Shown here piece after piece: positions 125 through 17,257 of a DNA stretch of 18,644 nucleotides. The translations under genes were made by a program, and so were the position numbers. This stretch comes from Eubacteriales bacterium. GTDB taxonomy: Bacteria; Bacillota_A; Clostridia; Lachnospirales; Lachnospiraceae. Numbering within the stretch: position 1 is the first letter of the stretch; every line of letters starts with the position of its first letter. The notes below the pieces were generated by a model that searched no databases, was not told the origin of the DNA, and saw only the letters and a program-made list of their open reading frames with translations. The stretch lies in NCBI GenBank assembly GCA_030533315.1, contig JAUNJL010000020.1, positions 19,054 to 37,697 on the forward strand, written 5' to 3'.

Positions 125-1228
125 TCACGATTTATATTTTTCCACAATAGCTTTCATCTGGGGAAGCTTTTCTTCCATATCCTTCACCAGCTTGAACTGC
201 GTCCTGCATCGATCCAGGTTATGCCCCTCCCGGTGTACCTTGAAATAATGATCCCCCTCCAGATAGTCTGTCAGGAAACGGATGCCGCACTCAAAGGTCA
301 TAAGGATCGCCCCCATGGGAAGCATGTCCAGCTCCGTCTCCGTGAGGGCGCCCCCGCATCCCTCCACGAAACCCTTGACGTAAATTTCATACAAATGAAG
401 ATCGCAGGATATCTTGGACAGATCCCTTTCATCCTCCGCCCCCGTGCTGGCCCCAAACCGGATGGAATCTCCAAAATCATTCACGGAAAGCCCAGGCATC
501 ACCGTATCCAGATCGATCACACAGATGGCCCTCCCGGTGCGGTCATCGATCATGATGTTGTTCAGCTTCGTGTCGTTGTGGGTGACCCTCAAAGGTAGCT
601 TCCCCTCCCTCTGAAGATCACACAGGGTGTGGGCAAGTGTCTCCCGCTCCATCACGAACCGGATCTCCTCTCCCACCTTCTTTGCCCGCCCGCAGACGTC
701 CTTCTCCACCGCTTCCTTCAATCTGGCAAACCGTTTCACCGTATTGTGGAAATCCTGGATGGTCTCATGAAGGGTCTCGGCAGGGTAATCCGCCAAAAGC
801 CGTTGAAAATGCCCAAAGGCCACGGCGCTCTGGTAAAAATCGCCGTCACATTCCACCTGGTCGAAGCTGGTGGCGTTTTCGATGAAGAGATAGGCTCTCC
901 AATATTCCCCGTCCTCCGCCTTATAGTAAGGCAGCCCCTCCCGGTCATAGACCAGATTCAGGGTTTCTCTCTCCGTGTCTCCCCCTCTTTCCCGTATCTT
1001 CTGCTTCAGCCACGCAGTCACCCTGCTGACGTTCTCCATCAGCTCCTCCGGCTTCACAAAAATACTTCTGTTCATCTTCTGGAGGATAAAACGTTTTGGG
1101 CCGCTGCCGGTGCGGAAGGTCAGCCGGTAAGTATCGTTGATGTGCCCGCTCCCATAGGGTACGCACTCCTGCAAAGTCCCAGGAAAATCAAACCTGCCGA
1201 TCACTTCCATGATCTTTTCATTTTCCAC
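125..1228 (-). CDS. nahK: N-acetylhexosamine 1-kinase-like phosphotransferase (APH fold)
   Basis: The 367-residue protein has the aminoglycoside/choline kinase fold. The nucleotide-binding loop is GSGHINDTY (26-34), followed by FILQKMNRSIF (47-57), a stretch typical of NahK relatives. The catalytic loop is THNDTKLNNI (216-225, base Asp219) and the metal site is IDLDT (238-242). Known NahK enzymes phosphorylate GlcNAc or GalNAc at C1 in cytoplasmic salvage from lacto-N-biose or galacto-N-biose. The start is GTG (1228..1226), directly after the TAA of the upstream nucleotidyltransferase, with GGAGG eight bases upstream inside that gene; this implies translational coupling. The paired nucleotidyltransferase supports a kinase making a sugar-1-phosphate. 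Exact sugar specificity cannot be read from sequence; a different hexose or a choline-like substrate is less likely. Confidence 0.8.
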   Translation of the reverse strand: MENEKIMEVIGRFDFPGTLQECVPYGSGHINDTYRLTFRTGSGPKRFILQKMNRSIFVKPEELMENVSRVTAWLKQKIRERGGDTERETLNLVYDREGLPYYKAEDGEYWRAYLFIENATSFDQVECDGDFYQSAVAFGHFQRLLADYPAETLHETIQDFHNTVKRFARLKEAVEKDVCGRAKKVGEEIRFVMERETLAHTLCDLQREGKLPLRVTHNDTKLNNIMIDDRTGRAICVIDLDTVMPGLSVNDFGDSIRFGASTGAEDERDLSKISCDLHLYEIYVKGFVEGCGGALTETELDMLPMGAILMTFECGIRFLTDYLEGDHYFKVHREGHNLDRCRTQFKLVKDMEEKLPQMKAIVEKYKS

Positions 1229-2158
1229 TTACTCTTCCTCCCACAGCCCTTGGGGATACAGGCCCTCATCCTTCATCCTCTGGATGGCGGCCACCACCAC
1301 CGGCTTATCCTCTTTGTAGGTCACCCCATACCACTTATCCATGGATTTCAGGACCTTCACCGACGCCCTCTTTTCCTTCAAAAGCTCATCCACCACAAAG
1401 GGCAGGAAATATTCACATTTCAGCGGATTTTTTTTCAGGTTTTCCTCCAAAAATCCAGAAAATCTCTCCTTCAGCTCCTTTAAGATGCTTGCGGAAAAGC
1501 CCCACATGTTCATGGATACCGTGCTGTCCATAGGCAGAGCCTGCCAGGAAGCTCCTCCGTCCTCCGTGTAAGCAGCTCCCCCGTCCCTTTTCTCGATATG
1601 GGTGCGCTCATTGATGTCCACAAGGTAACCTTCCTGGTCGGTGACGCAGATCCCCCTGGCCACGTGCCCGTGATCCGTCAGCGTATTCTCCAGCTGATAG
1701 CCCACCATCATGTACGAATAAAGCCCGTCCGTCTCCTGGTTCCCGGACAGGAAATCATAGGCCATGGAAAAAGCATGTCTTCCATAATAATCGTCTGCAT
1801 TGATGACTGCAAAGGGGCCGTCCACCTCCTCAAGGCAACTCATGATGGCATGGCCGGTTCCCCAGGGCTTGATACGCCCCTCCGGAACCGAAAAGCCCTC
1901 CGGAAGATTTCCCAGCTCCTGGAACACATAGGCAACCTGGATCACCTTGCTCAGCCGGTCACCAATGGCCTCCCGAAAGCTTTTCTCATTTTCCCTTTTG
2001 ATGATGAACACCACTTTCTCAAAGCCAGCCTTCACCGCATCGTAAATGGAAAAATCCATGATAATGTGCCCCTGGGGGTCCACGGGATCAATCTGCTTCA
2101 GACCGCCGTAACGGCTTCCCATCCCTGCCGCCATGACAACTAACACTGGTTTTTTCAT
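1229..2158 (-). CDS. Sugar-1-phosphate nucleotidyltransferase
   Basis: The 309-residue protein begins with the pyrophosphorylase signature AAGMGSRYGGLK (10-21), where Gly-rich loop, Arg16 and Lys21 bind NTP. PWGTGHA (98-104) and INADDYYG (119-126) follow, the latter supplying the metal-binding Asp. The family transfers a nucleotide from NTP to a sugar-1-phosphate. Next to a C1-kinase it probably makes a UDP-sugar, the role played by the LnpC step in the bifidobacterial lacto-N-biose pathway. The chosen start is ATG at 2158..2156, nine bases after AGGA; an in-frame upstream ATG at 2215 would add 19 residues before the fold and has no good site. The stop abuts the kinase start. Whether GlcNAc-1-P, GalNAc-1-P or glucose-1-P is used cannot be told. 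Confidence 0.82.
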   Translation of the reverse strand: MKKPVLVVMAAGMGSRYGGLKQIDPVDPQGHIIMDFSIYDAVKAGFEKVVFIIKRENEKSFREAIGDRLSKVIQVAYVFQELGNLPEGFSVPEGRIKPWGTGHAIMSCLEEVDGPFAVINADDYYGRHAFSMAYDFLSGNQETDGLYSYMMVGYQLENTLTDHGHVARGICVTDQEGYLVDINERTHIEKRDGGAAYTEDGGASWQALPMDSTVSMNMWGFSASILKELKERFSGFLEENLKKNPLKCEYFLPFVVDELLKEKRASVKVLKSMDKWYGVTYKEDKPVVVAAIQRMKDEGLYPQGLWEEE

Positions 2159-2198
2159 AAGACTTCGTCCTTTCTTTTTTATGATCAATGATCCTGCC

Positions 2199-2220
2199 GG
2201 GCTGTCTCCTTCCACAGCCC
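2199..2220 (-). repeat. Intercistronic hairpin between permease and nucleotidyltransferase
   Basis: A perfect 7-bp stem (GGGCTGT 2199-2205 with ACAGCCC 2214-2220) closes an eight-base loop in the 90-base gap between the second permease and the nucleotidyltransferase. No U-run follows, so it more likely stabilises or processes mRNA than terminates it. Confidence 0.5.
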
Positions 2221-2248
2221 TTCCAACAACAAGGATTTCCGGATATTC

Positions 2249-3133
2249 CTAACCCTTAATGCCTCCGGTAACGCCTCCGATGATCTTTTCGGACAGCAGC
2301 AGATACAAAATAAAGGTAGGCAAAAACACGATGACCACCGCCGCAAACATACCGGCCCAGTCCCCCGTATACTTCATGGCGTTGATCATGCTGTAAAGTC
2401 CCGGGGCAACCGGCCGTATGGCATCAGAGTTCCCAAAGATCAAAGACAGAAAATACTCGTTCCACACATTGATAAAGTTAAAGATGGTCACCGTGATCAG
2501 GCCGGACTGAGCCATGGGAAACATGATCTTCCAGAATGTCATGCCCGGCGCACAGCCGTCGATGGCGGCCGCCTCCTCATAGGTCCTTGACAGGTTCGCA
2601 AAGAAGGTGAGGAGAAAAATGGTGGTGTAAGGCACGTTGATCCCGATGTAGAGAAACACCAGGACCAGGCGGTTGCGAAGCCCTCCATCCACCAGGTTCA
2701 GACGGGCCACCACGCTGAACAGGGGAAGGACGATCATCACCACCGGCACTCCCATGGCCGATACAAAGCTGGTCTTGATGATCCGGTTCATAATAAAGTC
2801 AAAACGGCTCAGCACATAAGCCGCAGGAGCGCAGATAAGGATCAGAAAGACACAGGAAATACTGGAATAGATCAGGGAGTTCATGAAGAACGTGGAAACG
2901 TTCGATGCGTTCCATGCCTTTACATAGTTTTCAAAATGAAGCCCGGACTCAAAGCTGAGAGCCTTCCCCCGAAAAATCTCCGGGGTGGTGGCAAAGCTGG
3001 CCCCAATGATCCAGCCCAGCAGCACAAAAGTAAACAGCACCCACAGCGCCAGGATCAGGTAGCCTGGCAGGAGCCTGGCTTCTTTTTTCCAGTTGATCTT
3101 GCCCCGCCCTCTTATCTTCTTTTCATTTGCCAT
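2249..3133 (-). CDS. Carbohydrate ABC transporter permease, MalG type
   Basis: A 294-residue integral membrane protein with about six hydrophobic segments, the first at about 21-45. The conserved ATPase-contact loop is at 187-206 (EEAAAIDGCAPGMTF...P), the EAA motif of CUT1 sugar permeases. The start is ATG at 3133..3131 with AGGAGG five bases upstream; an in-frame ATG twelve codons earlier lacks spacing. It lies 16 bases downstream of the first permease, and the two form the membrane channel that takes sugar from the binding protein. No ATP-binding subunit is encoded here, so a shared MsmX-like ATPase elsewhere is inferred. Substrate is unknown but probably the sugar handled by the kinase and nucleotidyltransferase. 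Confidence 0.92.
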   Translation of the reverse strand: MANEKKIRGRGKINWKKEARLLPGYLILALWVLFTFVLLGWIIGASFATTPEIFRGKALSFESGLHFENYVKAWNASNVSTFFMNSLIYSSISCVFLILICAPAAYVLSRFDFIMNRIIKTSFVSAMGVPVVMIVLPLFSVVARLNLVDGGLRNRLVLVFLYIGINVPYTTIFLLTFFANLSRTYEEAAAIDGCAPGMTFWKIMFPMAQSGLITVTIFNFINVWNEYFLSLIFGNSDAIRPVAPGLYSMINAMKYTGDWAGMFAAVVIVFLPTFILYLLLSEKIIGGVTGGIKG

Positions 3134-3149
3134 GACATCCTCCTCTTTC

Positions 3150-4055
3150 CTAAAATTCCAGGTCATCATCCTTGATCACCTTGTCGCAGACGGTAAAAAT
3201 CAGGACCACGCAGATGCTCAGGATCACGCCCACGGCCGCTCCCAGGCCCGCATTCCTCTCGGTCACCGCATTACCCGCCCCAAATACCTGGGCGTACATA
3301 TAGACCATGGGAGTGATGGTCTGGGTATCTGCCGTGACGGAGGAAAACAGCTGGGACCATACGAAGAAGGCCGAACAGGTGACGGACCACATGGTGATGT
3401 TCGTCTTGATCACTCCTCGAAGGAGAGGCCAGGTGATAAAGCGGAACTGCTTGGGCTTCGTCGCCCCGTCGATGGTGGCAGCCTCGAAAAGCTCGGGACT
3501 GATACGCTCGATACCGCTTAGGAAGATCAGCATGTGATAGCCCACCATGCCAAAGCAATAGGCGATGAGAAGGGCCCAGAACTTATGATCCGCATCCAGC
3601 CAGGGAATGGCCGCCAGCTTCGTAAGATGAAGCCTTGTGAACAGATTTTTCAAAAGGCCGAACTGATTTTGGAATACAAACTGGAGCCACATGGTCGCCA
3701 GGGCAACGGCGCTGACCACGTTGGGCAGGTAGATCACCGCCCGGAAAAACTTTTTGAACCGGATCCCGCTGGTGAGGATCACCGCAAAAAGAAGAGCCAG
3801 GGACATGACGATCAGCCCTCCGAAAAGCCAGATGCGGAAAAGATTGAACATGGACGTGCGAAAAAGGCTGGTTCCCAGCAGCTTGCCGTAGTTGTCTATT
3901 CCCACGAAGCTCCACAAATCCATGCTGTCTGTCACACCCTCGATCTTAAAAAAGCTCATGAGCACGGTCCGGATAATGGGATAAAGAAACACGATGCAAA
4001 ACATGAGAACTGCGGGAGCCAGGAAGCCAACGATCATTTTTTTACTATGCTTCAA
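3150..4055 (-). CDS. Carbohydrate ABC transporter permease, MalF type
   Basis: A 301-residue permease with a hydrophobic first segment (8-30) and the EAA loop at 191-210 (EAATIDGATKPKQF...P). It pairs with the MalG-type permease downstream. The start is taken as TTG at 4055..4053, because AAGGAGG lies eight bases upstream. The longer open frame (to 4232) would add a polar, low-complexity leader and run through the intercistronic region; the internal ATG at 4037 is too far from the site. Length matches the family. It is separated from the binding-protein gene by a terminator-like hairpin, so its expression is probably lower than that of the binding protein. Confidence 0.9.
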   Translation of the reverse strand: MKHSKKMIVGFLAPAVLMFCIVFLYPIIRTVLMSFFKIEGVTDSMDLWSFVGIDNYGKLLGTSLFRTSMFNLFRIWLFGGLIVMSLALLFAVILTSGIRFKKFFRAVIYLPNVVSAVALATMWLQFVFQNQFGLLKNLFTRLHLTKLAAIPWLDADHKFWALLIAYCFGMVGYHMLIFLSGIERISPELFEAATIDGATKPKQFRFITWPLLRGVIKTNITMWSVTCSAFFVWSQLFSSVTADTQTITPMVYMYAQVFGAGNAVTERNAGLGAAVGVILSICVVLIFTVCDKVIKDDDLEF

Positions 4056-4200
4056 AACGGGTTCCTCCTTCTTTCCTGGGGATGTGAAAGCCGCCGGGGC
4101 AGGGGAGAGAGCCTGCGCAGGCGTTTTCCCATGAGATGTCCCCGCACTTTCGGCATCCCCTTCGTCTTTCTCACATAGAGTATGAACCTTCTTATGTGGT
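4056..4200 (-). other. Spacer between the attenuator and the first permease
   Basis: No gene is seen here. It holds a 6-bp inverted repeat (CACATA 4172-4177 with TATGTG 4193-4198) and a perfect 12-bp palindrome at 4111-4122, both able to form stems that could protect or process the permease mRNA. No clear new promoter for the permeases was seen, so they depend on read-through. Confidence 0.4.
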
Positions 4201-4236
4201 GAAAAAAATGGGCGGCAGCCTAAAACTGCCACCCAT
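4201..4236 (-). terminator. Partial terminator (attenuator) after the binding-protein gene
   Basis: Thirteen bases after the stop of the binding-protein gene an 11-bp stem (arms 4226-4236 and 4208-4218, one G-U pair) with a seven-base loop is followed by seven U residues on the minus strand. Placed inside the transport operon, it would let most transcripts end after the binding protein. This is the usual way importers gain excess binding protein over permeases. Confidence 0.85.
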
Positions 4237-4248
4237 CGCCTTTATCGT

Positions 4249-5499
4249 TTATTTTGATGCTTCCACCATAGCATCCACGAAGCCCTGTGCGTCCAGAGAA
4301 CCGGAGCAAAGCTTTGTGAAGTTCTCCTTGATCACCGGGGTGATGTCGTTGTTGGACTCGATGCTGACAGCCCAGCCATAGCGTGTGGTGGTATTGTCCA
4401 GAACTGCCTTCGCCTCCGTCAGAGCCTCCGGCCACGCCTCGCCGTTCGCCTGGTCTGCCGGGATGCACAGTGCCTGATCCACGAAGTTCTGATCCACTTC
4501 CCCTGTGGTCAGGTACTCAATCAGCTGGAATGCCTCCGCAGGCATGGAGGAATCCTTGTTGATGGCGAATACCTGGTTTGCGATGTTGTTGGCCTCTGTG
4601 CCGTCCACGCCGCCTTCCACAGCTGGATAAGCGAAGGAGCCCCAGCGGAAGCTGTCGCCGGCCACCGCCTTCACCTCGTTGGGAAGCCAGGTTCCGTTTA
4701 AGTACATCGCAACCGTACCGGTGGCAAACTCTGTGTTCTGTCCGGCCGGCCATACGTTCGTGCTCAGGTTCGGGGAGAAGTAGCCCTTGGAGGCCAGCTC
4801 CTCATAATCCTCTGCCATCTGAAGGACGATGGGGTCATCCCACTGCCCGTTCTCCACGATCTCCTTTACCTTGGCCTCTCCGCCGAGACGCCCCAGATGA
4901 TAAGCGATCATGCAGTCAATATACGCATCGTCACAGGTCAAAGGCGTGATGCCTGCATCCGTCAGCTTCTGGCACGCTTCCAGGAAGCTGTCCCAATCTG
5001 CGGGCACCTCCTCGATCCCAGCCTGATCAAAGAGATCCTTGTTGTACATGAAGCAGAAAAGAGATGGCTGGTAGGGAATGGATTTCAGAGTTCCGCCGGC
5101 AACGTCCCGGGCGATCTGGAAAAGAACGGGTGTGGCATGTTCTTCCTCATATCCATCCTTCACATATTCCTCAAGATCCAGAAGGTATTTGCCCCAAGAG
5201 GTGTTCACACGATCCACGTCCTCATCAAACACGTCGATCTGCTGTCCTGCATCCAGGGCCGGCTGAAGACCCTCGCGCTGTCCGGTACGTCCCTTAAACT
5301 CCACGTCCACTTCCACGCCGGTCTCCTCCGTAAACTTCGCTACGGCTTCTTTGATCACCTGGCCCTGGGGCTCTGCTTCATCCCACATGGACCAATAGAC
5401 CAGCTTTCCATCTGCTGCCTGCACCGCTGCTGGAGCAGCCATCGTTCCCGTCATCGCTGCACATAAGGCTGCGCAAAGAAGTTTTTTCTTGATACCCAT
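4249..5499 (-). CDS. Extracellular sugar-binding protein of the ABC importer
   Basis: The 416-residue protein is a family 1 solute-binding protein, the size and architecture of MalE-like proteins. MGIKKK and a hydrophobic core are followed by a type I signal-peptidase site, AVQA|AD (after residue 28). The mature part opens with KLVYWSMWDE, typical of the family, then FTEETGVEVDVEF. It would capture the sugar outside the membrane and deliver it to the two permeases. The start is ATG at 5499..5497, eight bases after AAGGAGG; the upstream in-frame ATG at 5541 is poorly placed. Unusually for a Gram-positive, no lipobox Cys is seen near the cleavage site (Cys9 and Cys13 lie within the hydrophobic core). 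The gene is divergent from the AraC-type regulator. Its ligand cannot be deduced. Confidence 0.9.
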   Translation of the reverse strand: MGIKKKLLCAALCAAMTGTMAAPAAVQAADGKLVYWSMWDEAEPQGQVIKEAVAKFTEETGVEVDVEFKGRTGQREGLQPALDAGQQIDVFDEDVDRVNTSWGKYLLDLEEYVKDGYEEEHATPVLFQIARDVAGGTLKSIPYQPSLFCFMYNKDLFDQAGIEEVPADWDSFLEACQKLTDAGITPLTCDDAYIDCMIAYHLGRLGGEAKVKEIVENGQWDDPIVLQMAEDYEELASKGYFSPNLSTNVWPAGQNTEFATGTVAMYLNGTWLPNEVKAVAGDSFRWGSFAYPAVEGGVDGTEANNIANQVFAINKDSSMPAEAFQLIEYLTTGEVDQNFVDQALCIPADQANGEAWPEALTEAKAVLDNTTTRYGWAVSIESNNDITPVIKENFTKLCSGSLDAQGFVDAMVEASK

Positions 5500-5555
5500 A
5501 GCTGATTCCTCCTTGTGTTTTACATTTCTTTTTTTGTGCAATATTGATTGTTTTT

Positions 5556-5640
5556 CACAATTTATATCGCTTTCTGCTTACAATTTTAACAGTTTACCCC
5601 CAATAGTATTTACACAATCATATTTTTGTTTTGCACAAAC
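5556..5640 (-). promoter_or_regulatory. Promoter and possible AraC-type operators of the importer operon
   Basis: On the minus strand a -35-like TTAAAA (5584-5589) and -10 TATAAA (5561-5566) are 17 bases apart, starting transcripts about 55 bases before the binding-protein ATG. Upstream lie two direct copies of (A/T)TTGTG(C/T)AAA, with CACAA on the plus strand at 5634-5638 and 5613-5617, exactly 21 bp apart. A third copy (5556-5560) overlaps the start point, and an opposed TTGTG lies at 5535. Two direct repeats 21 bp apart are the usual form of AraC-family half-sites. The regulator is encoded alongside, but binding is inferred. Confidence 0.45.
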
Positions 5641-5738
5641 GACCCGCTGCGGCCCCGGCACCAGAAGGATCCTTCCCCCTCCCAGGAGAAACGAAAAACT
5701 ATTTCTGTAAACTTCTGGATTTTTTATATCACTTACGT

Positions 5739-5744
5739 TATACT
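5739..5744 (+). promoter_or_regulatory. -10 element of the AraC-type regulator gene
   Basis: TATACT lies 36 bases before the regulator start. No good -35 is seen at 17-18 bases, so the promoter may be weak or activator-dependent. The rest of the 280-base divergent region (5500-5779) holds no gene. Confidence 0.45.
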
Positions 5745-5779
5745 AGGGAAAGATGTGAGGAGCAAAGAGGTAGAACCAT

Positions 5780-6682
5780 ATGGCTTATGAAAGCATTCAG
5801 ATCGATGCGGAGCTTCATATTGAAAGCATATACACCATCCATTATTTTGAATATCAGAAGGATTTTTATTTTGCCGGTGAGCGCCACGATTTCTGGGAAT
5901 TTCAGTGCGTAGACAAGGGCATGGCCCGGGTGCGGACAGACAACGGCGTCCACGTCCTGAACAAGGGACAGGCCATCTTTCACCGTCCCGGAGAATTTCA
6001 CGACCTTACCGCCGTCGGCCAGACGGCCCCCAACATCGTCGTGATCTCCTTTGGCTGCCATTCTCCCTCCATGGATTTCTTTAACAGGAGGATCGTGGAT
6101 ATCTCTGACACGGAGCGCAGCCTCATGGGCATGATCATTGGTGAGGCCAGGCGATGCATCGCCTCCCCCTTGGACGACCCTTATCTCCAAAAAATGGAAA
6201 AGCGCCCCGATCCTCCCTTTGGCTCACAGCAGCTGATCCGCCTTTACCTGGAGCAGATGCTGATCTACATCATCCGCCGAAACGGAAAGTCTCAGCTGTC
6301 CGTTCCGGACAGCCAGTTCTCTGACCTTAAGACCGGCTCCGCCGCCTACAACAAGATCCTCTGTTATCTGGAAGAGCACATCCAGGTCTCTCTCACCATC
6401 GAGGATATCTGCCATGACAATCTCATCGGCCGTTCCCAGCTCCAGAAGCTTTTCCGGGAGCAGAACGGCTGCGGCGTCATTGAGCAGTTCTCTCTCATGA
6501 AGATCGATCTGGCAAAGCGGCTCATCCGGGAGAATCAGATGAATTTCACCCAGATCTCCGATTTTCTGGGATATTCTTCCATCCATTATTTTTCCCGGCA
6601 GTTTAAGAAGATCTCAGGCATGACTCCTACAGAATATGCCACCTCCATCAAGGCCCGGTCCGAGCGGGGACAGACGTCCTAG
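5780..6682 (+). CDS. AraC-family transcriptional regulator with cupin sensor
   Basis: The 300-residue protein has an N-terminal AraC-binding cupin (about 20-110, with RHDFWEF at 35-41 and FHRPGEFHD at 67-75) that normally senses a sugar. The C-terminal DNA-binding part has two helix-turn-helix units, the first from about 205 and the second at about 255-287 (NFTQISDFLGY...F.R.FKK..G.TP..Y). It is divergent from the importer operon and upstream of nagB on its own strand, so the likely role is local activation of hexosamine uptake and use. The start follows AGAGG by nine bases. The inducer is unknown. The central region between the two domains carries no recognised fold. Confidence 0.9.
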   Translation: MAYESIQIDAELHIESIYTIHYFEYQKDFYFAGERHDFWEFQCVDKGMARVRTDNGVHVLNKGQAIFHRPGEFHDLTAVGQTAPNIVVISFGCHSPSMDFFNRRIVDISDTERSLMGMIIGEARRCIASPLDDPYLQKMEKRPDPPFGSQQLIRLYLEQMLIYIIRRNGKSQLSVPDSQFSDLKTGSAAYNKILCYLEEHIQVSLTIEDICHDNLIGRSQLQKLFREQNGCGVIEQFSLMKIDLAKRLIRENQMNFTQISDFLGYSSIHYFSRQFKKISGMTPTEYATSIKARSERGQTS

Positions 6683-6750: not shown

Positions 6751-7479
6751 ATGAAGCTTATCAAAGTAAAGGATTATCAGGAACTCAGCAAAAAGGCCGC
6801 AGGGATCATTGCGGCAAACATCATCCTGAAGCCGGACTGCGTCCTCGGCCTGGCAACCGGCTCTTCCCCCGTGGGCACCTACCAGGAGCTTGCCACCATG
6901 TACGAAAGAGGAGAGCTGGACTTCTCCCAGGTTACCTCTGTAAATCTGGATGAATACGTAGGCCTGGACGGCTCCAGCGACCAAAGCTATCGGTATTTCA
7001 TGAACAAAAACCTTTTTGAAAAGGTGAATATCCCCATGGGCCGCACCTTCGTCCCAGACGGCAGTAACTTAGACGAGAAAAAGGCCTGCGCAGATTACGA
7101 GGAGATCCTGAAAAAGACGGGACCGGCCGACCTGCAGCTCCTTGGCATCGGCGTCAACGGGCACATCGGCTTCAATGAGCCCTCGGACGCCTTCGCCGCC
7201 TCCACCCACTGCGTGGAGCTGACGGAGGAGACCATCCAGTCCAACAAGCGCTTTTTCCAGAGGGAGGAGGATGTCCCCAAAAAGGCATACTCCATGGGCA
7301 TCGGCAACATCATGAACGCAAAAATGGTTCTTTTGGTCGCCAACGGAAAGAACAAGGCCCAGGCCGTGGCACAGATGATCCAGGGTCCCGTGACGCCCAA
7401 AATGCCTGCCTCCATCCTGCAGTTTCATCCCAACGTGGTCGTAATTGCCGATGAGGAGGCACTTTCCATGCTCTCCTGA
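6751..7479 (+). CDS. nagB: Glucosamine-6-phosphate deaminase
   Basis: NagB converts glucosamine-6-P to fructose-6-P and ammonia in the cytoplasm, the last step of amino-sugar catabolism. At 242 residues it matches the short Gram-positive form, which lacks the C-terminal allosteric tail of the E. coli enzyme. Visible motifs are the phosphate loop ATGSSPVGTY (35-44), NLDEY (65-69, catalytic Asp67), and GIGVNGHIGFNEP (132-144) with His138 and Glu143. The start is ATG eight bases after AAGGAG. It follows the AraC-type gene and ends 32 bases before a strong terminator. It ties the locus to hexosamine use; nagA is not in the window. Confidence 0.97.
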   Translation: MKLIKVKDYQELSKKAAGIIAANIILKPDCVLGLATGSSPVGTYQELATMYERGELDFSQVTSVNLDEYVGLDGSSDQSYRYFMNKNLFEKVNIPMGRTFVPDGSNLDEKKACADYEEILKKTGPADLQLLGIGVNGHIGFNEPSDAFAASTHCVELTEETIQSNKRFFQREEDVPKKAYSMGIGNIMNAKMVLLVANGKNKAQAVAQMIQGPVTPKMPASILQFHPNVVVIADEEALSMLS

Positions 7480-11810: not shown

Positions 11811-11841
11811 AAAAAAATCCAGGGCCCTAAAAGCCCCGGAT
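11811..11841 (-). terminator. Terminator of the GreA-family gene
   Basis: A 9-bp stem (11833-11841 with 11817-11825, one G-U pair) with a seven-base loop is followed by seven consecutive U residues (11817-11811, the first pairing at the stem base). The gene's TAG stop lies in the loop, so the terminator overlaps the end of the coding sequence. Confidence 0.9.
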
Positions 11842-12327
11842 CTCTTCGTCCTCCGTATGTGTTTTGTCGATGGAGAGGATCTCCAGAAAATAACTGTAGG
11901 AGTCATTTACCTGAACCTCCACCCGATCTCCCGCCTTGTGGCCCTTGAGAGCCTTTCCAATGGGGGACTCGATGCTGATGCGGTTTTCCATGGAATTTCC
12001 TCGGATGGAGGTGACCAGCTTGTACTTCTCCGTCTCGTCTTCCTCCTCAAACCGTACCTCCACCACGTCATTCATTCCCACCTCGTCCTCCCTGGAACGG
12101 TCTGTGACGATGATGGCGGTCTTCAGCATATTTTCCAGGTAACGGATCCTGCTCTCATTTTGGTTCTTATGCTTTTTTGCCGCATAATACTCGAAATTCT
12201 CACTTAAATCTCCCTGGGCCCTGGCTTCCTTCACAGCCTCGATGGCCTCCTTGCGGACCACCAGCTTCCGGTGGTCGATCTCCTGCTGGATTTTTTCCAC
12301 GTCCTGCTTTGTCAGCTTTTCTCTCAT
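11827..12327 (-). CDS. greA: GreA-family transcription elongation factor
   Basis: The 166-residue protein has an N-terminal coiled coil (about 1-75) with ARAQGDLSENFEY (35-47). Its tip acids Asp40 and Glu43 correspond to those Gre factors place in the RNA polymerase secondary channel to trigger cleavage of backtracked RNA. The C-terminal FKBP-like domain (about 85-160) has the usual SPIGKALKG (140-148). It is slightly longer than the 158 residues of E. coli GreA, by an acidic tail. The start is ATG at 12327..12325, nine bases after GGAG. It has its own consensus promoter and terminator, so it is probably monocistronic. A lineage may carry more than one Gre paralogue, so orthology to greA is probable rather than sure. 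Confidence 0.9.
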   Translation of the reverse strand: MREKLTKQDVEKIQQEIDHRKLVVRKEAIEAVKEARAQGDLSENFEYYAAKKHKNQNESRIRYLENMLKTAIIVTDRSREDEVGMNDVVEVRFEEEDETEKYKLVTSIRGNSMENRISIESPIGKALKGHKAGDRVEVQVNDSYSYFLEILSIDKTHTEDEEIRGF

Positions 12328-12372
12328 TTCCTGTATCTCCTTACGCCTTATTTTGCGATACTCTTTTCCTTA

Positions 12373-12397
12373 CAGGAGATGACATCGTCATTTCCTG
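12373..12397 (-). other. Hairpin in the greA leader
   Basis: Arms 12373-12383 and 12387-12397 pair with one mismatch around a three-base loop. The stem lies between the promoter and the ribosome binding site of the gene. A role in translation or RNA stability is possible; no ligand or protein is suggested. Confidence 0.45.
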
Positions 12398-12411
12398 CCC
12401 ATAGTTCTCTA

Positions 12412-12440
12412 ACCATAGCAGATTGGGCAGGTTTTGTCAA
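12412..12440 (-). promoter_or_regulatory. Consensus promoter of the GreA-family gene
   Basis: TTGACA (12435-12440) and TATGGT (12412-12417) are exactly 17 bases apart on the minus strand. The start would be about 80 bases before the ATG. Confidence 0.88.
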
Positions 12441-12499
12441 ACCCAGGCCGGCAAAGCTCCGGGAGGATCCCCGCAGGCTGCGCATATCCAGGCCTCCCG

Positions 12500-12543
12500 C
12501 CTGCCGAAAGGCTCCGCGGCGATGCGCGGTGCCATCCGGCAGG
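12500..12543 (-). repeat. Long GC-rich hairpin between the CarD and GreA genes
   Basis: Three nested paired blocks form one arm: CCTGCCG (12500-12506), GGC (12510-12512) and CCGCG (12514-12518). They match CGCGG (12525-12529), GCC (12531-12533) and CGGCAGG (12537-12543) in order. It begins about ten bases after the CarD-family stop. There is no U-run, so if it ends transcription it does so weakly; it may protect the 3' end. Confidence 0.65.
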
Positions 12544-12551
12544 ACAAAGCC

Positions 12552-13073
12552 TCATCCCTTTGCAGGCTCCTGATTCCGGGAGAGATAAGAAACAATGTAG
12601 CTGCCTATGGACTTTTTGGGAATGTCCAGAAGCAGGGAGAGCTCCGCATACAGATAGTCCTCCGCCATTTTCAGATATCGCTCGTCCGTGGCCGTGACCT
12701 TCTTCCTCCGGGACAGCCTGTCCTTCTTCCGCATCTGAATGGTCTTGATCACCCTCACAAGCTCCCGGGATTCACAGGTTTTCATGCATTCCCGGTATTT
12801 CTCTTCCCGCAGCTTGTCATTGGCAATGTCCAGCGTCTCGATCCCGGGGATCTCGTCCAGGAGCTCCCTCGCCTCCTTCTTCGACATGGTCCGGCGAATC
12901 GCGACCTTCGGATTCTCCACCGGGGTAAAAATGGTACCCTCCGTGGCCCCGTCCGGCCTGAGCACGTAGTAGAGCCGGTCCTTCGGCACACCATCCATAT
13001 TCATGGTAGTAGTCCCAACCACCTGGCAGATCCCTGTGTGACCATAAATTACATAGTCTCCTGGTGCAAACAT
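12552..13073 (-). CDS. CarD/CdnL-family RNA polymerase-binding regulator
   Basis: The 173-residue protein has the N-terminal RID domain (about 1-65; FAPGDYVIYGHTGICQV at 2-18) that binds the polymerase beta subunit, also found in the Mfd repair factor. A helical basic C-terminal region (about 75-165), with TMSKKEARELLDEIP and a cluster of Arg and Lys, contacts promoter DNA in known members. Such factors stabilise open promoter complexes. The start is ATG at 13073..13071, seven bases after AAAGGAG; an in-frame extension to 13220 runs through a putative RNA gene and is not expected in this family, whose members begin with the M-F-x-x-G-D pattern. It is upstream of the GreA-family gene but separately promoted. 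Confidence 0.92.
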   Translation of the reverse strand: MFAPGDYVIYGHTGICQVVGTTTMNMDGVPKDRLYYVLRPDGATEGTIFTPVENPKVAIRRTMSKKEARELLDEIPGIETLDIANDKLREEKYRECMKTCESRELVRVIKTIQMRKKDRLSRRKKVTATDERYLKMAEDYLYAELSLLLDIPKKSIGSYIVSYLSRNQEPAKG

Positions 13074-13116
13074 ATATACGCTCCTTTCCCATAAAATTGT
13101 TTTCCAGTTTTTATAG

Positions 13117-13122
13117 ATTATA
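13117..13122 (-). promoter_or_regulatory. -10 element near the CarD-family gene
   Basis: A perfect TATAAT lies 43 bases before the ATG. The nearest TTGATG is 22 bases upstream, too far for a normal -35, so this promoter is less certain than the one at 13267-13295. Confidence 0.5.
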
Positions 13123-13174
13123 CCCAGCTTTTCCGCACTGCCTACATCAAAGAGCAAAAATGCGCTGCCTGCAT

Positions 13175-13260
13175 AAAAAAGAACCCCCATACAGCCACAG
13201 GGCTGGCAAGGAGTCCTCATGTTCTAACTGTTCAGTCCCCAAAACAGTTATCTAAAGCCT
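13175..13260 (-). ncRNA. Putative small RNA or attenuator leader before the CarD-family gene
   Basis: A transcript starting near 13260 from the promoter at 13267-13295 would fold into a perfect 8-bp stem (13243-13250 with 13225-13232, ten-base loop). A second, bulged stem-loop follows, with core CAGCC/GGCTG at 13192-13205 and outer GAAC/GTTC, ending in six U residues at 13175-13180. Promoter, two stems and U-run make an RNA of about 85 bases. It could be an independent RNA, or a leader that ends transcription before the CarD-family gene. No known family was recognised. No convincing ribosome binding site or ORF is seen within it. Confidence 0.5.
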
Positions 13261-13374: not shown

Positions 13375-16065
13375 TCAGAATTTCTTTTTTCCCAGGCGGA
13401 CGTCCTCCACATATTCCGAAATCTCCGGGGACGCCTGATCAAATAGGTAGCTGCGGCTGCTCTGCCTGCGCACATGCCATTCCTGGCGGACAGCCTCCTT
13501 GGTCTCCAAAATTTCCTTCTGGAGCCCCTTTGCCGAAATCCGGTGGGCTCCCTGCCCCATGATGATCACCTGCTCCAGACCATCTGAGGTGGCCACGGTC
13601 ACCTTGTACTGCCGGCCCAGCCGATGCACGGTTTTCTCGATGTACTGATCCGCCGTCTCCGCCTCTCTGGTGTAAACCACGTGAATGTTGTGGTAGCGGA
13701 CCACCTCCTCCTGATGCCCCTCCACCTTGTAGGCGTCAAAAACCAGGATCAGGGTGCAGCCCTTGTACCCCTGATAATCGCTCAGAATGTCCATCAAACG
13801 GCTGGCCGCTCCGTGAAGATCAGACTCCGCCAGAAGGCGCAGCTCCTCCCAGGCAAAGATCACGTTGTATCCGTCCACCAGAAGATACTCCTCCTGCTCC
13901 TTCTTTTTGGGAGCATGAGAACGGGAGTCGCCCCCGGAGGCCAAAACCCTGGCTCCCTCCGGCTCTCTCTCCCTCTTCACCGGACCAAAGGTACGCTCAA
14001 AAATAGCCATAAGCTCTTTTTCTTCCTCATAGCTCCCTACAGCATGGCTCTCCCGCCGCCCGGAGGGCTTTGCCTGAATCTCTTCCTCAGGCGAGGGCTC
14101 CCCCAGATTCCCAGCAGATTCCAGGTGCATATATTGTTCCACCTCATACCAGGGCACCACAAAGCCTGCACCGTGGGCGCAGAACACCGATCCGGTAGGA
14201 TTATCCAGGTCCCTCTCGGGATCATAGCCGATGGCCCTCACCACCTCATCCTGATCCTGACAGGGCTGATATCCCCCCAGGGTGCAAAACAGCCTCCCCT
14301 GGCCGCCGGTATAGGCAATGAACTGACTCTGGTAGTCTCCCATGGCTGACACGGGAACCGTTCCCTTCAGGATCATCCCCTCCTCCTCCAGATAAGGCTC
14401 CTGGAGGGTTCCCTGCATCCGCTGGATATCTGCCATCGCCCTTCCCACGCACTGGGCGGGCAGCTCCATGCGAAACTCATAATAAGGCTCCAAAAGGATG
14501 CTTCTGGCCTTTTTCAGGCCCTGGCGCACGGCCCGGTAGGTGGCCTGGCGGAAATCCCCTCCCTCCGTGTGCTTCAGGCGGGCTCTTCCCGTCAGGAGGG
14601 TGATCTGCACGTCGGTGAGGGCGGAGCCTGTGAGGACACCCAGGTGCTCCTTTTCCTCCAGGTGAGTCAGGATCAGACGCTGCCAGTTTTTGTCCAAAAC
14701 GTCCTCACTGCACGCCGTGAAAAACTGAAGACCGCTGCCCCTCTCTCCCGGTTCCAGAAGAAGATGCACCTCCGCATAGTGGCGGAGAGGCTCAAAATGG
14801 CCGACCCCCTCCACGGGGGCCGCTATGGTCTCCTTGTACACGATGCTTCCCCTGCCAAACTCCACCGCCGTGTGAAAACGCTCCCAGATCAGGCTTTTCA
14901 GAATCTCCGTCTGCACCTCCCCCATGACCATGGCATGGATCTCTCCTGCGGCAGGATCCCAGGCAATGTGGAGCTGAGGCTCTTCCTCCTCCAGCTCCTT
15001 CAGCCTTTTCAGCATCTGATGAACGTCACAGTCCGGCGGCAGGCAGACCTGGTACTTTAAAACCGGCTCCAAAACCGGCATTTCCGATTCCGCCTCCATG
15101 CCAAGTCCCTGGCCAGGACGAGTATGGGTCAGTCCTGTCACGGCACAGACCGTACCTGCAGGTGCTTCCCCCAGAAGCTGATACCTGGCCCCAGAGTATA
15201 GCCGGATCTGATCCACCTTCTCCTCCCACACCTCCTCGGAAGATGAGACCGGAAACCGCTTTTGGTTGGTGAGCAGCTCCTTTACCCTCAGACGGCCCCC
15301 GGTAATCTTCATGTACGTCAGCCGGTTTCCCTGCTCATCCCTGGCGATCTTGAAGATCTTGGCCCCAAAGGCTTCGCCGTAGACCCCGGGGGATGCGTAG
15401 GCCACCAGCCCGTCGATCAGCTCCTGCACGCCCGTCAGCTTCAGGGCGGAGCCAAAGTAGCAGGGAAAGACCTTCCGCTCCCTGACCAGCCTGGAAATCT
15501 CCTCCTCCGGCACCTCCCCCTCCTCCAAATATCGCTCCAAAAGCCTCTCGTCGCACATGGCCAGCTCTTCCCAAAAGTGGTCCTTTTCCTGGCTCGGTTC
15601 AAAATCCAGACATGCGTCGCTTAAACGCTTTTTCAGTTCCTTATGCAGAGCGTCCCTGTCCGTCCCCTCCTGATCCATTTTGTTGATGAACAAAAAGACG
15701 GGGATCCCATATCTTTTCAGCAGCCGCCACAGAGTCAGGGTGTGACCCTGCACGCCGTCCGCACCCGAGATCACAAGGATGGCGCAATCCAAAATCTGGA
15801 GCGTCCGCTCCATCTCCGCCGAAAAATCCACGTGTCCCGGCGTGTCCAGAAGGGTCACCTCCCATTCTCCCATGGACAGCTCCGCCTGCTTGGAAAAGAT
15901 CGTGATCCCTCTCTCTCTTTCCAGCTCAAAGGTATCTAAATAGGCGTCCCCGTGATCCACCCGGCCCTGCTTTCTGATCCTTTTGCAAAGGTATAAAAGG
16001 GCCTCTGACAAGGTGGTTTTTCCCGCATCCACGTGGGCCAGGATCCCAATTACAAGCTTTCTCAT
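13375..16065 (-). CDS. TetM-like ribosome-binding GTPase fused to a Rae1/YacP-type NYN ribonuclease domain
   Basis: An 896-residue protein; TetM/TetO proteins have about 640. Residues 1-650 form a translational GTPase: G1 AHVDAGKT (10-17), G2 RGIT (52-55), G3 DTPGH (74-78), G4 NKMD (128-131), GSA near 205, then EF-G-like domains II-V. A charged linker (about 650-724) follows. Residues 725 to about 865 form a NYN domain close to YacP/Rae1, with VDGYN (730-734, Asp731), VFDAY (Asp777), AETAD (Asp806) and ATSD (Asp828). Rae1 cuts mRNA in the ribosomal A site, where EF-G-like GTPases bind, so the fusion suggests GTPase-guided mRNA cleavage. The TetM tip loop (SPVST) is replaced by LKHTEGGDFR (497-506), arguing against classical tetracycline protection. 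The start has AAGGAG at six bases; 31 bases follow the diguanylate cyclase gene. Confidence 0.9.
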   Translation of the reverse strand: MRKLVIGILAHVDAGKTTLSEALLYLCKRIRKQGRVDHGDAYLDTFELERERGITIFSKQAELSMGEWEVTLLDTPGHVDFSAEMERTLQILDCAILVISGADGVQGHTLTLWRLLKRYGIPVFLFINKMDQEGTDRDALHKELKKRLSDACLDFEPSQEKDHFWEELAMCDERLLERYLEEGEVPEEEISRLVRERKVFPCYFGSALKLTGVQELIDGLVAYASPGVYGEAFGAKIFKIARDEQGNRLTYMKITGGRLRVKELLTNQKRFPVSSSEEVWEEKVDQIRLYSGARYQLLGEAPAGTVCAVTGLTHTRPGQGLGMEAESEMPVLEPVLKYQVCLPPDCDVHQMLKRLKELEEEEPQLHIAWDPAAGEIHAMVMGEVQTEILKSLIWERFHTAVEFGRGSIVYKETIAAPVEGVGHFEPLRHYAEVHLLLEPGERGSGLQFFTACSEDVLDKNWQRLILTHLEEKEHLGVLTGSALTDVQITLLTGRARLKHTEGGDFRQATYRAVRQGLKKARSILLEPYYEFRMELPAQCVGRAMADIQRMQGTLQEPYLEEEGMILKGTVPVSAMGDYQSQFIAYTGGQGRLFCTLGGYQPCQDQDEVVRAIGYDPERDLDNPTGSVFCAHGAGFVVPWYEVEQYMHLESAGNLGEPSPEEEIQAKPSGRRESHAVGSYEEEKELMAIFERTFGPVKREREPEGARVLASGGDSRSHAPKKKEQEEYLLVDGYNVIFAWEELRLLAESDLHGAASRLMDILSDYQGYKGCTLILVFDAYKVEGHQEEVVRYHNIHVVYTREAETADQYIEKTVHRLGRQYKVTVATSDGLEQVIIMGQGAHRISAKGLQKEILETKEAVRQEWHVRRQSSRSYLFDQASPEISEYVEDVRLGKKKF

Positions 16066-16096
16066 ATGTCTCTCCTTTTATTTCACAGCCATCCTC

Positions 16097-17257
16097 TCAC
16101 GCCCTGCCAGCCCAGTTCACACCGCTGCAGCCATAGGTCTCAAGCCTTCCCCTCCGGGCAGCAGCACCTGTTTTTCCCCCTCGCTTCGCATGGTAAAGAG
16201 CCTTGTCCACCTCCTCAAAAAGCTGGCGCTCCGACTGGATCTCCCCGTGCATCTCCTGAATCCCGCAGCTGAAGGTCACCTGGCAGACGGTACCGTCCAG
16301 CTCCTGCTCCATCCTGGAAAAGTCCTTCCTCAGACGTTCCATGATCTCCCTGGATTCCTTCAGGGACAGGCCGTCAAAAAGGATCACAAACTCCTCTCCT
16401 CCATAGCGGCAGGCGTGAGCCGGATAATTTTTCAGGCGATCCTGGATCAGTCCCGCCAGGTTCTCCAGAACCAGATCCCCATTGCCGTGGCCATAGGTAT
16501 CGTTGATCCTTTTAAAATTATCCACATCGATCATTGCCATGGTGAAAGGATTCCCTTCCTTCTGGTAACGGTTTATGCTCTCCTGGATCAGGACGGTGTA
16601 AGCATAGTGGTTCAAAAGGCCTGTCTGCACATCCACCATCAGCTTTTTCTGCAGCTTCGCCTGCTTTTCATAGTTGTCCTGGAGATATTCCATCACTCTC
16701 TTGTGGTAATCGATTACCACGTTGGTGAGAAGGTAAGCCATGAACAGAAGGATTACCCCGATCACCACGTTGGAGAAAAAAAGCCCCTCTCTAGGCGGCT
16801 GGGAAGGCTTTGGGAAATACACCGCCGCCAGATACAAGGCCAGGTTCAAGACCCCTATGTAGCTTGTCATTTTCCATGAACCAAACATCCCGGAAAGGAT
16901 GATGGGAACACAGAAAATACTGAACAGCACCAGAAAAATATAGTGAAAATATGCCACGGAAAAACAGATCAGGGACAGGCAGACAAGAGGTGTCATATAT
17001 TTGTATTGCTCGGGAAAGGTCTTCAATTCCAAAAAGATCCATCCAGAAAACCATGTCATGATATTCATCAAAAAGGGAAGGAGGATGTAAAAAGCCACAT
17101 ACTCTTCAAAGGTACACCACACCTGACCGATGCTGGTCAAATAATGGTACATGACGGCCTCCGCCAGCAGCAGTACCAGAATGAATACCATATTGATATA
17201 CATCAGGCGCTTCTGCCACTGTTTCGTATCACGGTTCACTAAAATTTGATTTTGCAT
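16097..17257 (-). CDS. Membrane diguanylate cyclase (GGDEF domain)
   Basis: The 386-residue protein has about six hydrophobic segments in residues 18-182, then a GGDEF domain. It starts DVQTGLLNHYAY (209-220), with metal-binding IDVDNFKRIND (243-253), HGNGD, and the active-site loop GGEEF (286-290). It would make c-di-GMP from two GTP at the membrane. The inhibitory RxxD site is absent (NYPA at the equivalent place), so product feedback through it is unlikely. The membrane part matches no named sensor. The start is ATG at 17257..17255, ten bases after GGAGG; an upstream ATG at 17287 lacks a site. It probably shares an operon with the GTPase-nuclease gene downstream. No EAL or HD-GYP gene is in the window. 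Confidence 0.9.
   Translation of the reverse strand: MQNQILVNRDTKQWQKRLMYINMVFILVLLLAEAVMYHYLTSIGQVWCTFEEYVAFYILLPFLMNIMTWFSGWIFLELKTFPEQYKYMTPLVCLSLICFSVAYFHYIFLVLFSIFCVPIILSGMFGSWKMTSYIGVLNLALYLAAVYFPKPSQPPREGLFFSNVVIGVILLFMAYLLTNVVIDYHKRVMEYLQDNYEKQAKLQKKLMVDVQTGLLNHYAYTVLIQESINRYQKEGNPFTMAMIDVDNFKRINDTYGHGNGDLVLENLAGLIQDRLKNYPAHACRYGGEEFVILFDGLSLKESREIMERLRKDFSRMEQELDGTVCQVTFSCGIQEMHGEIQSERQLFEEVDKALYHAKRGGKTGAAARRGRLETYGCSGVNWAGRA

Follow-up and report, generated by a model that had tools for sequence, protein, structure and literature searches.

The window (the whole stretch of DNA that was analysed, 18,644 nucleotides) carries on its minus strand an intact reading frame of 896 codons, in which an EF-G/Tet-type GTPase is joined to a Rae1/YacP-type nuclease domain. 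The gene and its parts are as follows.

13375..16065, minus strand: whole gene of the GTPase–Rae1 fusion, 896 aa, stop codon included
16072..16077, minus strand: AAGGAG, a Shine-Dalgarno-like site
15376..16065, minus strand: G domain, residues 1–230, with G1 at 10–17, RGIT at 52–55, DTPGH at 74–78 and NKMD at 128–131
15076..15375, minus strand: domain II, residues about 231–330 (Pfam score 20.7 bits under a cut-off of 27; matched by structure)
14854..15075, minus strand: domain III, residues about 331–404 (Pfam score 26.5 bits, marginally under the cut-off of 27; likewise matched by structure)
14500..14853, minus strand: domain IV, residues 405–522 (Pfam match over cut-off)
14524..14595, minus strand: domain-IV tip loop, residues 491–514, KHTEGGDFRQATYRA (TetO counterpart YYSPVSTPADFR)
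14254..14499, minus strand: domain V, residues 523–604 (Pfam match over cut-off)
14122..14253, minus strand: conserved tail, residues 605–648, SVFCAHGAGFVVPW..V..YMH (aligned to the TetO/TetM C-terminal tail)
13894..14121, minus strand: variable charged linker, residues 649–724, mostly predicted disordered
13396..13893, minus strand: NYN_YacP (Rae1) domain, residues 725–890 (profile, sequence, fold)
13873..13875, minus strand: Asp731 codon (VDGYN)
13735..13737, minus strand: Asp777 codon (FDAY)
13648..13650, minus strand: Asp806 codon (AETAD)
13582..13584, minus strand: Asp828 codon (ATSD)

Pfam and NCBIfam matches placed the EF-G/Tet-type GTPase at residues 4–605 and NYN_YacP at residues 728–890. 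Structure comparison aligned residues 1–618 of the predicted model to EF-G, with domains II–V in the EF-G order. The whole-protein model was of moderate quality (mean pLDDT 77.9, pTM 0.61), and domain placement was therefore left out of the argument. The linker, 79 residues long in the window protein and 68–139 residues across 81 orthologs, had AlphaFold pLDDT values below 50 at 653–686 and 688–722. Mean conservation across 81 orthologs was highest in domain IV (0.84), with the NYN domain at 0.74 and the G domain at 0.73.

A reading of the letters alone (hereafter the sequence-only reading) had proposed this architecture, and the profile matches to both parts, the complete G motifs and the four retained acids confirmed it. 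The nearest locus among named genomes was that of Blautia schinkii (73%), and both domains were present in all 120 protein matches listed (the best 120 of 7976 scored). An assembly join as the source of the fusion was ruled out, since the two domains recur together in the proteins and loci of relatives.

The GGDEF gene upstream ends at 16097, leaving a gap of 31 bases into which a long leader would not fit. An Rfam search of the window gave zero matches. A consensus scan counted 7 promoter-like sites in the window (3.1 expected, sd 1.7) and 5 terminator-like sites (5.3 expected), neither of which was used as evidence. We found no conserved neighbourhood at the chosen cut-offs, the window neighbours recurring in at most 5 of 44 full-flank loci; when neighbours were clustered, the largest other cluster occurred in 20 of 80 fused loci and in 4 of 39 in a second set. 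Next downstream (11827–13220) lie a GreA/GreB-type factor and a CarD/TRCF-RID protein, matched in 5/44 and 4/44 full-flank loci, respectively. Positions 125–5541 hold an APH-family kinase, a nucleotidyltransferase and three genes whose products we take for a binding protein and a pair of ABC permeases, and a glucosamine-6-phosphate isomerase-type gene lies at 6751. With roles assigned partly by reading, this set looks like one for sugar (amino sugar) uptake.

The C-terminal domain is Rae1/YacP

The NYN_YacP profile matched the C-terminal domain with 172.4 bits against a cut-off of 24.6, over positions 1–165 of 166. Asp731, Asp777, Asp806 and Asp828 were all retained in the 33 fused domains compared; on the basis of the sequence-only reading and of family knowledge we take these four residues to be the active site. 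Structure searches with the full model listed no Rae1, the list being filled by GTPase matches, and the NYN part was therefore folded separately. Folded alone, it was predicted to adopt the Rae1 fold. The domain is thus Rae1 by profile, sequence and fold, in agreement with the identity first proposed for it.

The fusion in place of a separate yacP

A survey of stand-alone yacP, which the sequence-only reading had suggested, revealed that the fusion replaces it in nearly all fusion genomes. In each of eight fusion genomes checked, the single NYN_YacP match was the fusion itself. We extended this to an order sample of 147 genomes (requested at a nominal 90% completeness), 132 of which carried the NYN_YacP domain. 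GTPase and NYN lay in one open frame of at least 840 codons in 49/147, and a stand-alone domain (frame below 260) was present in 82/147. Two genomes had both (G134 and G116, the fusion of G116 being cut by a contig end) and two had frames of middling length (G102 and G041); second fragments in G052 (48 codons, one stop) and G025 (62 codons) and a second piece in G145 were left out of these counts.

At the G041 locus (1389–3929) GTPase residues 1–120 occupy one frame and residues 120–404 followed by NYN another, with domains IV and V unmatched, which we read as a decayed or unusual fusion. At the G102 locus (1335–3898) GTPase and NYN lie in two overlapping frames of 504 and 372 codons, which we read as a frameshift or assembly slip. 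The stand-alone NYN domains of G134 and G116 share a divergent form on a long branch (0.8), and are perhaps a paralog with another role.

In a class sample of 243 genomes, NYN_YacP was found in the genome for 81/81 full-frame and 7/7 cut- or split-frame GTPases. Three of the fusion genomes in this sample (G269, G320 and G352) had an additional NYN_YacP match, the position of which does not appear among the matches listed. In a phylum sample the family occurred in 20/299 genomes, 18 of them with frames of at least 857.

The location of yacP was then compared. In three of five unfused genomes viewed (G255, G139 and G154), yacP lay downstream of rlmB and next to a sigma-factor gene, directly before the latter in the cysS/RNase III-like/rlmB region; in the remaining two (G090 and G016) yacP and rlmB were on different contigs. 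In four of the eight fusion genomes (G001, G003, G006 and G007) rlmB adjoined that sigma gene with nothing between, so that half of them still show, as a gap, where yacP used to be. In G002, G004, G005 and G008 no sigma-marker match was found among the open reading frames kept near rlmB. From these comparisons, it seems that in many gut bacteria related to Blautia the fusion has supplanted the usual stand-alone Rae1, and the genome of the window would likewise be without a separate yacP.

The GTPase is a branch of its own

The GTP motifs were invariant in 58 sequences, including the catalytic histidine of DTPGH, with one G1 position nearly invariant. The best NCBIfam match of the fusion was tet_protect, at 411.6 bits under a cut-off of 775, and four unfused relatives scored 393–422 bits against the same profile; TIGR00484 (EF-G) gave 289.7 bits, under its cut-off of 659.4. 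Unfused proteins, mostly of 641–729 aa, were recovered by a search with domain IV only. In a GTPase tree of 74 rows, built by a quick method and including two rows of ribosomal protection proteins (RPPs), fused and unfused members formed one group of 63 rows (support 99). TetO grouped with the second RPP row, L221 (100), across a branch of 99 from this family, and EF-G stood apart (100). Judged by sequence, then, the GTPase is an EF2-family branch of its own and no Tet resistance protein. The description 'TetM-like' in the sequence-only reading therefore holds at the level of fold; it fails at the level of family, with a domain-IV tip unlike those of TetO and another RPP.

Two further unfused EF2-family GTPases, L137 (G105) and L138 (G069), with frames of 643 and 688 aa and an HTHPLDF tip loop, fell outside the 63-row family, the RPP pair and EF-G.

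Domain-IV tip and C-terminal tail

The first tip loop had H[FY]EP in 63/63 family members, and the third had HT followed by three residues and DF or DL, again in 63/63, mostly as KHTEGGDFR or KHTSGGDFR. In TetO and the G001 RPP, the tip loops read NPFWAS and YYSPVSTPADFR. The TetO stretch YSPVSTP was absent from the tip loop of the fusion. Pro509 of TetM lies in the tetracycline site, according to the portion of PMC8161019 available to us, and by our own reading it is the proline within YSPVS of this stretch. Because the tip is conserved yet is neither that of EF-G nor that of TetO, its sequence points to a different task in the A site.

The tail, SVFCAHGAGF..PW..V..YMH, aligned to the TetO end CQPRRPNSRIDKVRHMFH, and structural alignment paired residues 1–641 of the model with TetM 1–639. 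It was present in both fused and unfused members, and the nuclease is joined C-terminal of it. The TetM tail reportedly contacts the decoding centre; if so, the nuclease would hang from the point nearest the A site.

These comparisons bear on a suggestion made in a 2015 survey, under which the protein would be a TetM-type protein for tetracycline resistance to which an RNase has been added. The survey, in the portion available, classes the fusion under Tet (PMC4342817). Some relatives are named as TetM/TetW/TetO/TetS family in their source records and tet_protect is the best NCBIfam match, but that match falls far under its cut-off, the clade is apart from TetO and a true RPP, and the stretch placed at the drug site is missing from the tip loop. 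Furthermore, the G001 genome encodes the fusion and also a distinct RPP, which falls with TetO in the tree. The tetM gene is under leader-type control, for which the 31 bases upstream in the window leave no room, and the fusion gene, common on chromosomes, is seldom met in records of plasmids and phages. We consider a resistance function quite improbable.

An acquired mobile resistance gene was also ruled out as the main reading, at least 80% of the query being covered in 2 of 72,556 plasmid and 2 of 50,697 phage records. Of the two plasmid records, one is a Monoglobus replicon of 518 kb and the other an Agathobacter replicon of 252 kb. The phage records are two faecal 'Bacteriophage sp.' entries that carry no annotation, MT835563.1 and MT835514.1; they covered 94–95% of the fusion and are perhaps bacterial DNA within a phage collection.

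Origin of the fusion and its unfused relatives

Of the 80 fused loci, 16 entered the GTPase and NYN trees together with fetched rows; rows short of the set ranges were dropped. The fused rows needed two label changes in the GTPase tree, because an unfused copy from L. salivarius (L199) fell among them with weak support, and one origin was not rejected (p-AU 0.42). The NYN tree needed three label changes, and again one origin was not rejected (p-AU 0.44). The free NYN domains nearest the fused ones came from G090, G016, G092, G147 and G034, and the unfused GTPases of these genomes were also on the fused side of the GTPase tree. This would fit, but does not prove, a single join of two genes of the same genome.

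The L. salivarius relative, annotated as tetracycline resistance, lies on the pMP118 megaplasmid (3529–5920 of the locus), where rpsN and a putative metal-homeostasis gene stand back to back with it; this species accounted for 28 of the 30 plasmid matches listed. Another genome, G255, has two unfused GTPase copies and a single NYN_YacP match.

Sixteen class-sample genomes had an unfused GTPase, and six of these (G178, G181, G205, G219, G323 and G347) had no NYN_YacP, indicating that the GTPase is of some use even where the nuclease is absent, and ruling out an obligate pairing of the two. Rae1 can also do without the GTPase, as it stood alone with no GTPase in 60/147 order genomes. Outside the fusion, co-occurrence in the order sample gave a Fisher p of 0.026 with kinship ignored (20/20 with NYN, one of them, G069, having its GTPase outside the family in the tree); in the class sample it was non-significant (p 0.15, kinship likewise ignored).

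The six genomes without NYN_YacP, and a linker so long and variable, would suit two independent activities, a lineage-specific translation or recycling GTPase and an ordinary Rae1, whose fusion merely fixes their ratio. Against this, the fusion has been retained through wide divergence, the weakly placed L. salivarius copy being the sole unfused row among the fused ones, and the conserved tail and the NYN domain are both preserved. We regard independent activities as unlikely. A Rosetta-stone argument from the fusion would make the unfused Clostridia GTPase family, some members of which are filed as tetracycline resistance, a partner of Rae1 in GTP-controlled cutting of mRNA on the ribosome; we offer this extension tentatively, as a possibility on the doubtful side.

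Proposed function

Collectively, we lean towards the view that the organism has no Rae1/YacP besides this protein, which would be a ribosome-dependent mRNA endonuclease tethered by a flexible linker to a dedicated EF2-family GTPase. Part of the literature on Bacillus Rae1 (the available portion of PMC6613710) was also counted in its favour. A ribosome-guided nuclease is the best inference, with ribosome binding, cutting, the order of steps and the use of GTP as its putative parts. The GTP form might bind a 70S ribosome with an empty A site, either stalled or slow, and domain IV would enter the decoding site. GTP hydrolysis would then shift domain IV out, and the tethered nuclease would enter the vacated A site and cut the exposed codon. 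Because domain IV and the nuclease would clash sterically in the A site, such a hand-off in sequence is needed; alternatively, the nuclease may cut on a neighbouring ribosome.

The same anatomy would serve if Rae1 cleaved first and the ribosome remaining on the cleaved mRNA were then cleared away or split with the help of the GTPase. EF2-family proteins act in translocation, in splitting ribosomes and in releasing factors (EF-G with RRF, RF3), as set out in the available part of PMC4342817. The join after a TetM-like tail fits delivery of the nuclease at least as well, and we think a GTPase acting after the cut improbable next to the tethered, ribosome-guided nuclease. To our knowledge, it is unsettled how Rae1 enters the A site and what allows it to cut. 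With a GTPase welded to Rae1 in common gut bacteria, the question of A-site entry becomes testable with one protein, and a fusion that replaces free Rae1 hints at the route of Rae1 into the ribosome. Genes named tetracycline resistance in Eubacteriales MAGs, Agathobacter and L. salivarius are probably not resistance genes, and resistome counts would be affected accordingly.

Comparison with known systems

The fusion is real, conserved and partly known. The sequence-only reading knew of no characterised member, and our literature search found no assay of the fusion; the fusion itself has been in print since 2015. Atkinson 2015 (PMC4342817), in the part available, describes Tet proteins of ten Clostridiales species that gained a YacP-like NYN domain. 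These are the same fusion, read there as Tet proteins with a possible role in resistance. The available part of that paper contains no mention of the replacement of yacP, of a separate GTPase family or of unfused members. Relative to the literature available, the yacP replacement and the separation from the Tet family are new; the Rae1 literature may already mention the fusion.

Compared with Tet(M)/Tet(O), the fusion is about 30% identical to TetO, belongs to a separate clade and differs in its tip loops, and TetO has no nuclease domain. Compared with EF-G (twelve rows taken from six clostridial genomes), its identity is 21–27%, its G domain is about 40 residues shorter, and its tip is unlike the VDSSEMAF that the seven displayed EF-G rows have. 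In Bacillus subtilis, Rae1/YacP (PDB 5MQ8 and 5MQ9) is a separate protein with a chain of 181 aa, whereas in the fusion it forms the C-terminal part of a GTPase protein, and position 779, which is His in 23/32 stand-alone domains, is Tyr in 33/33 fused domains.
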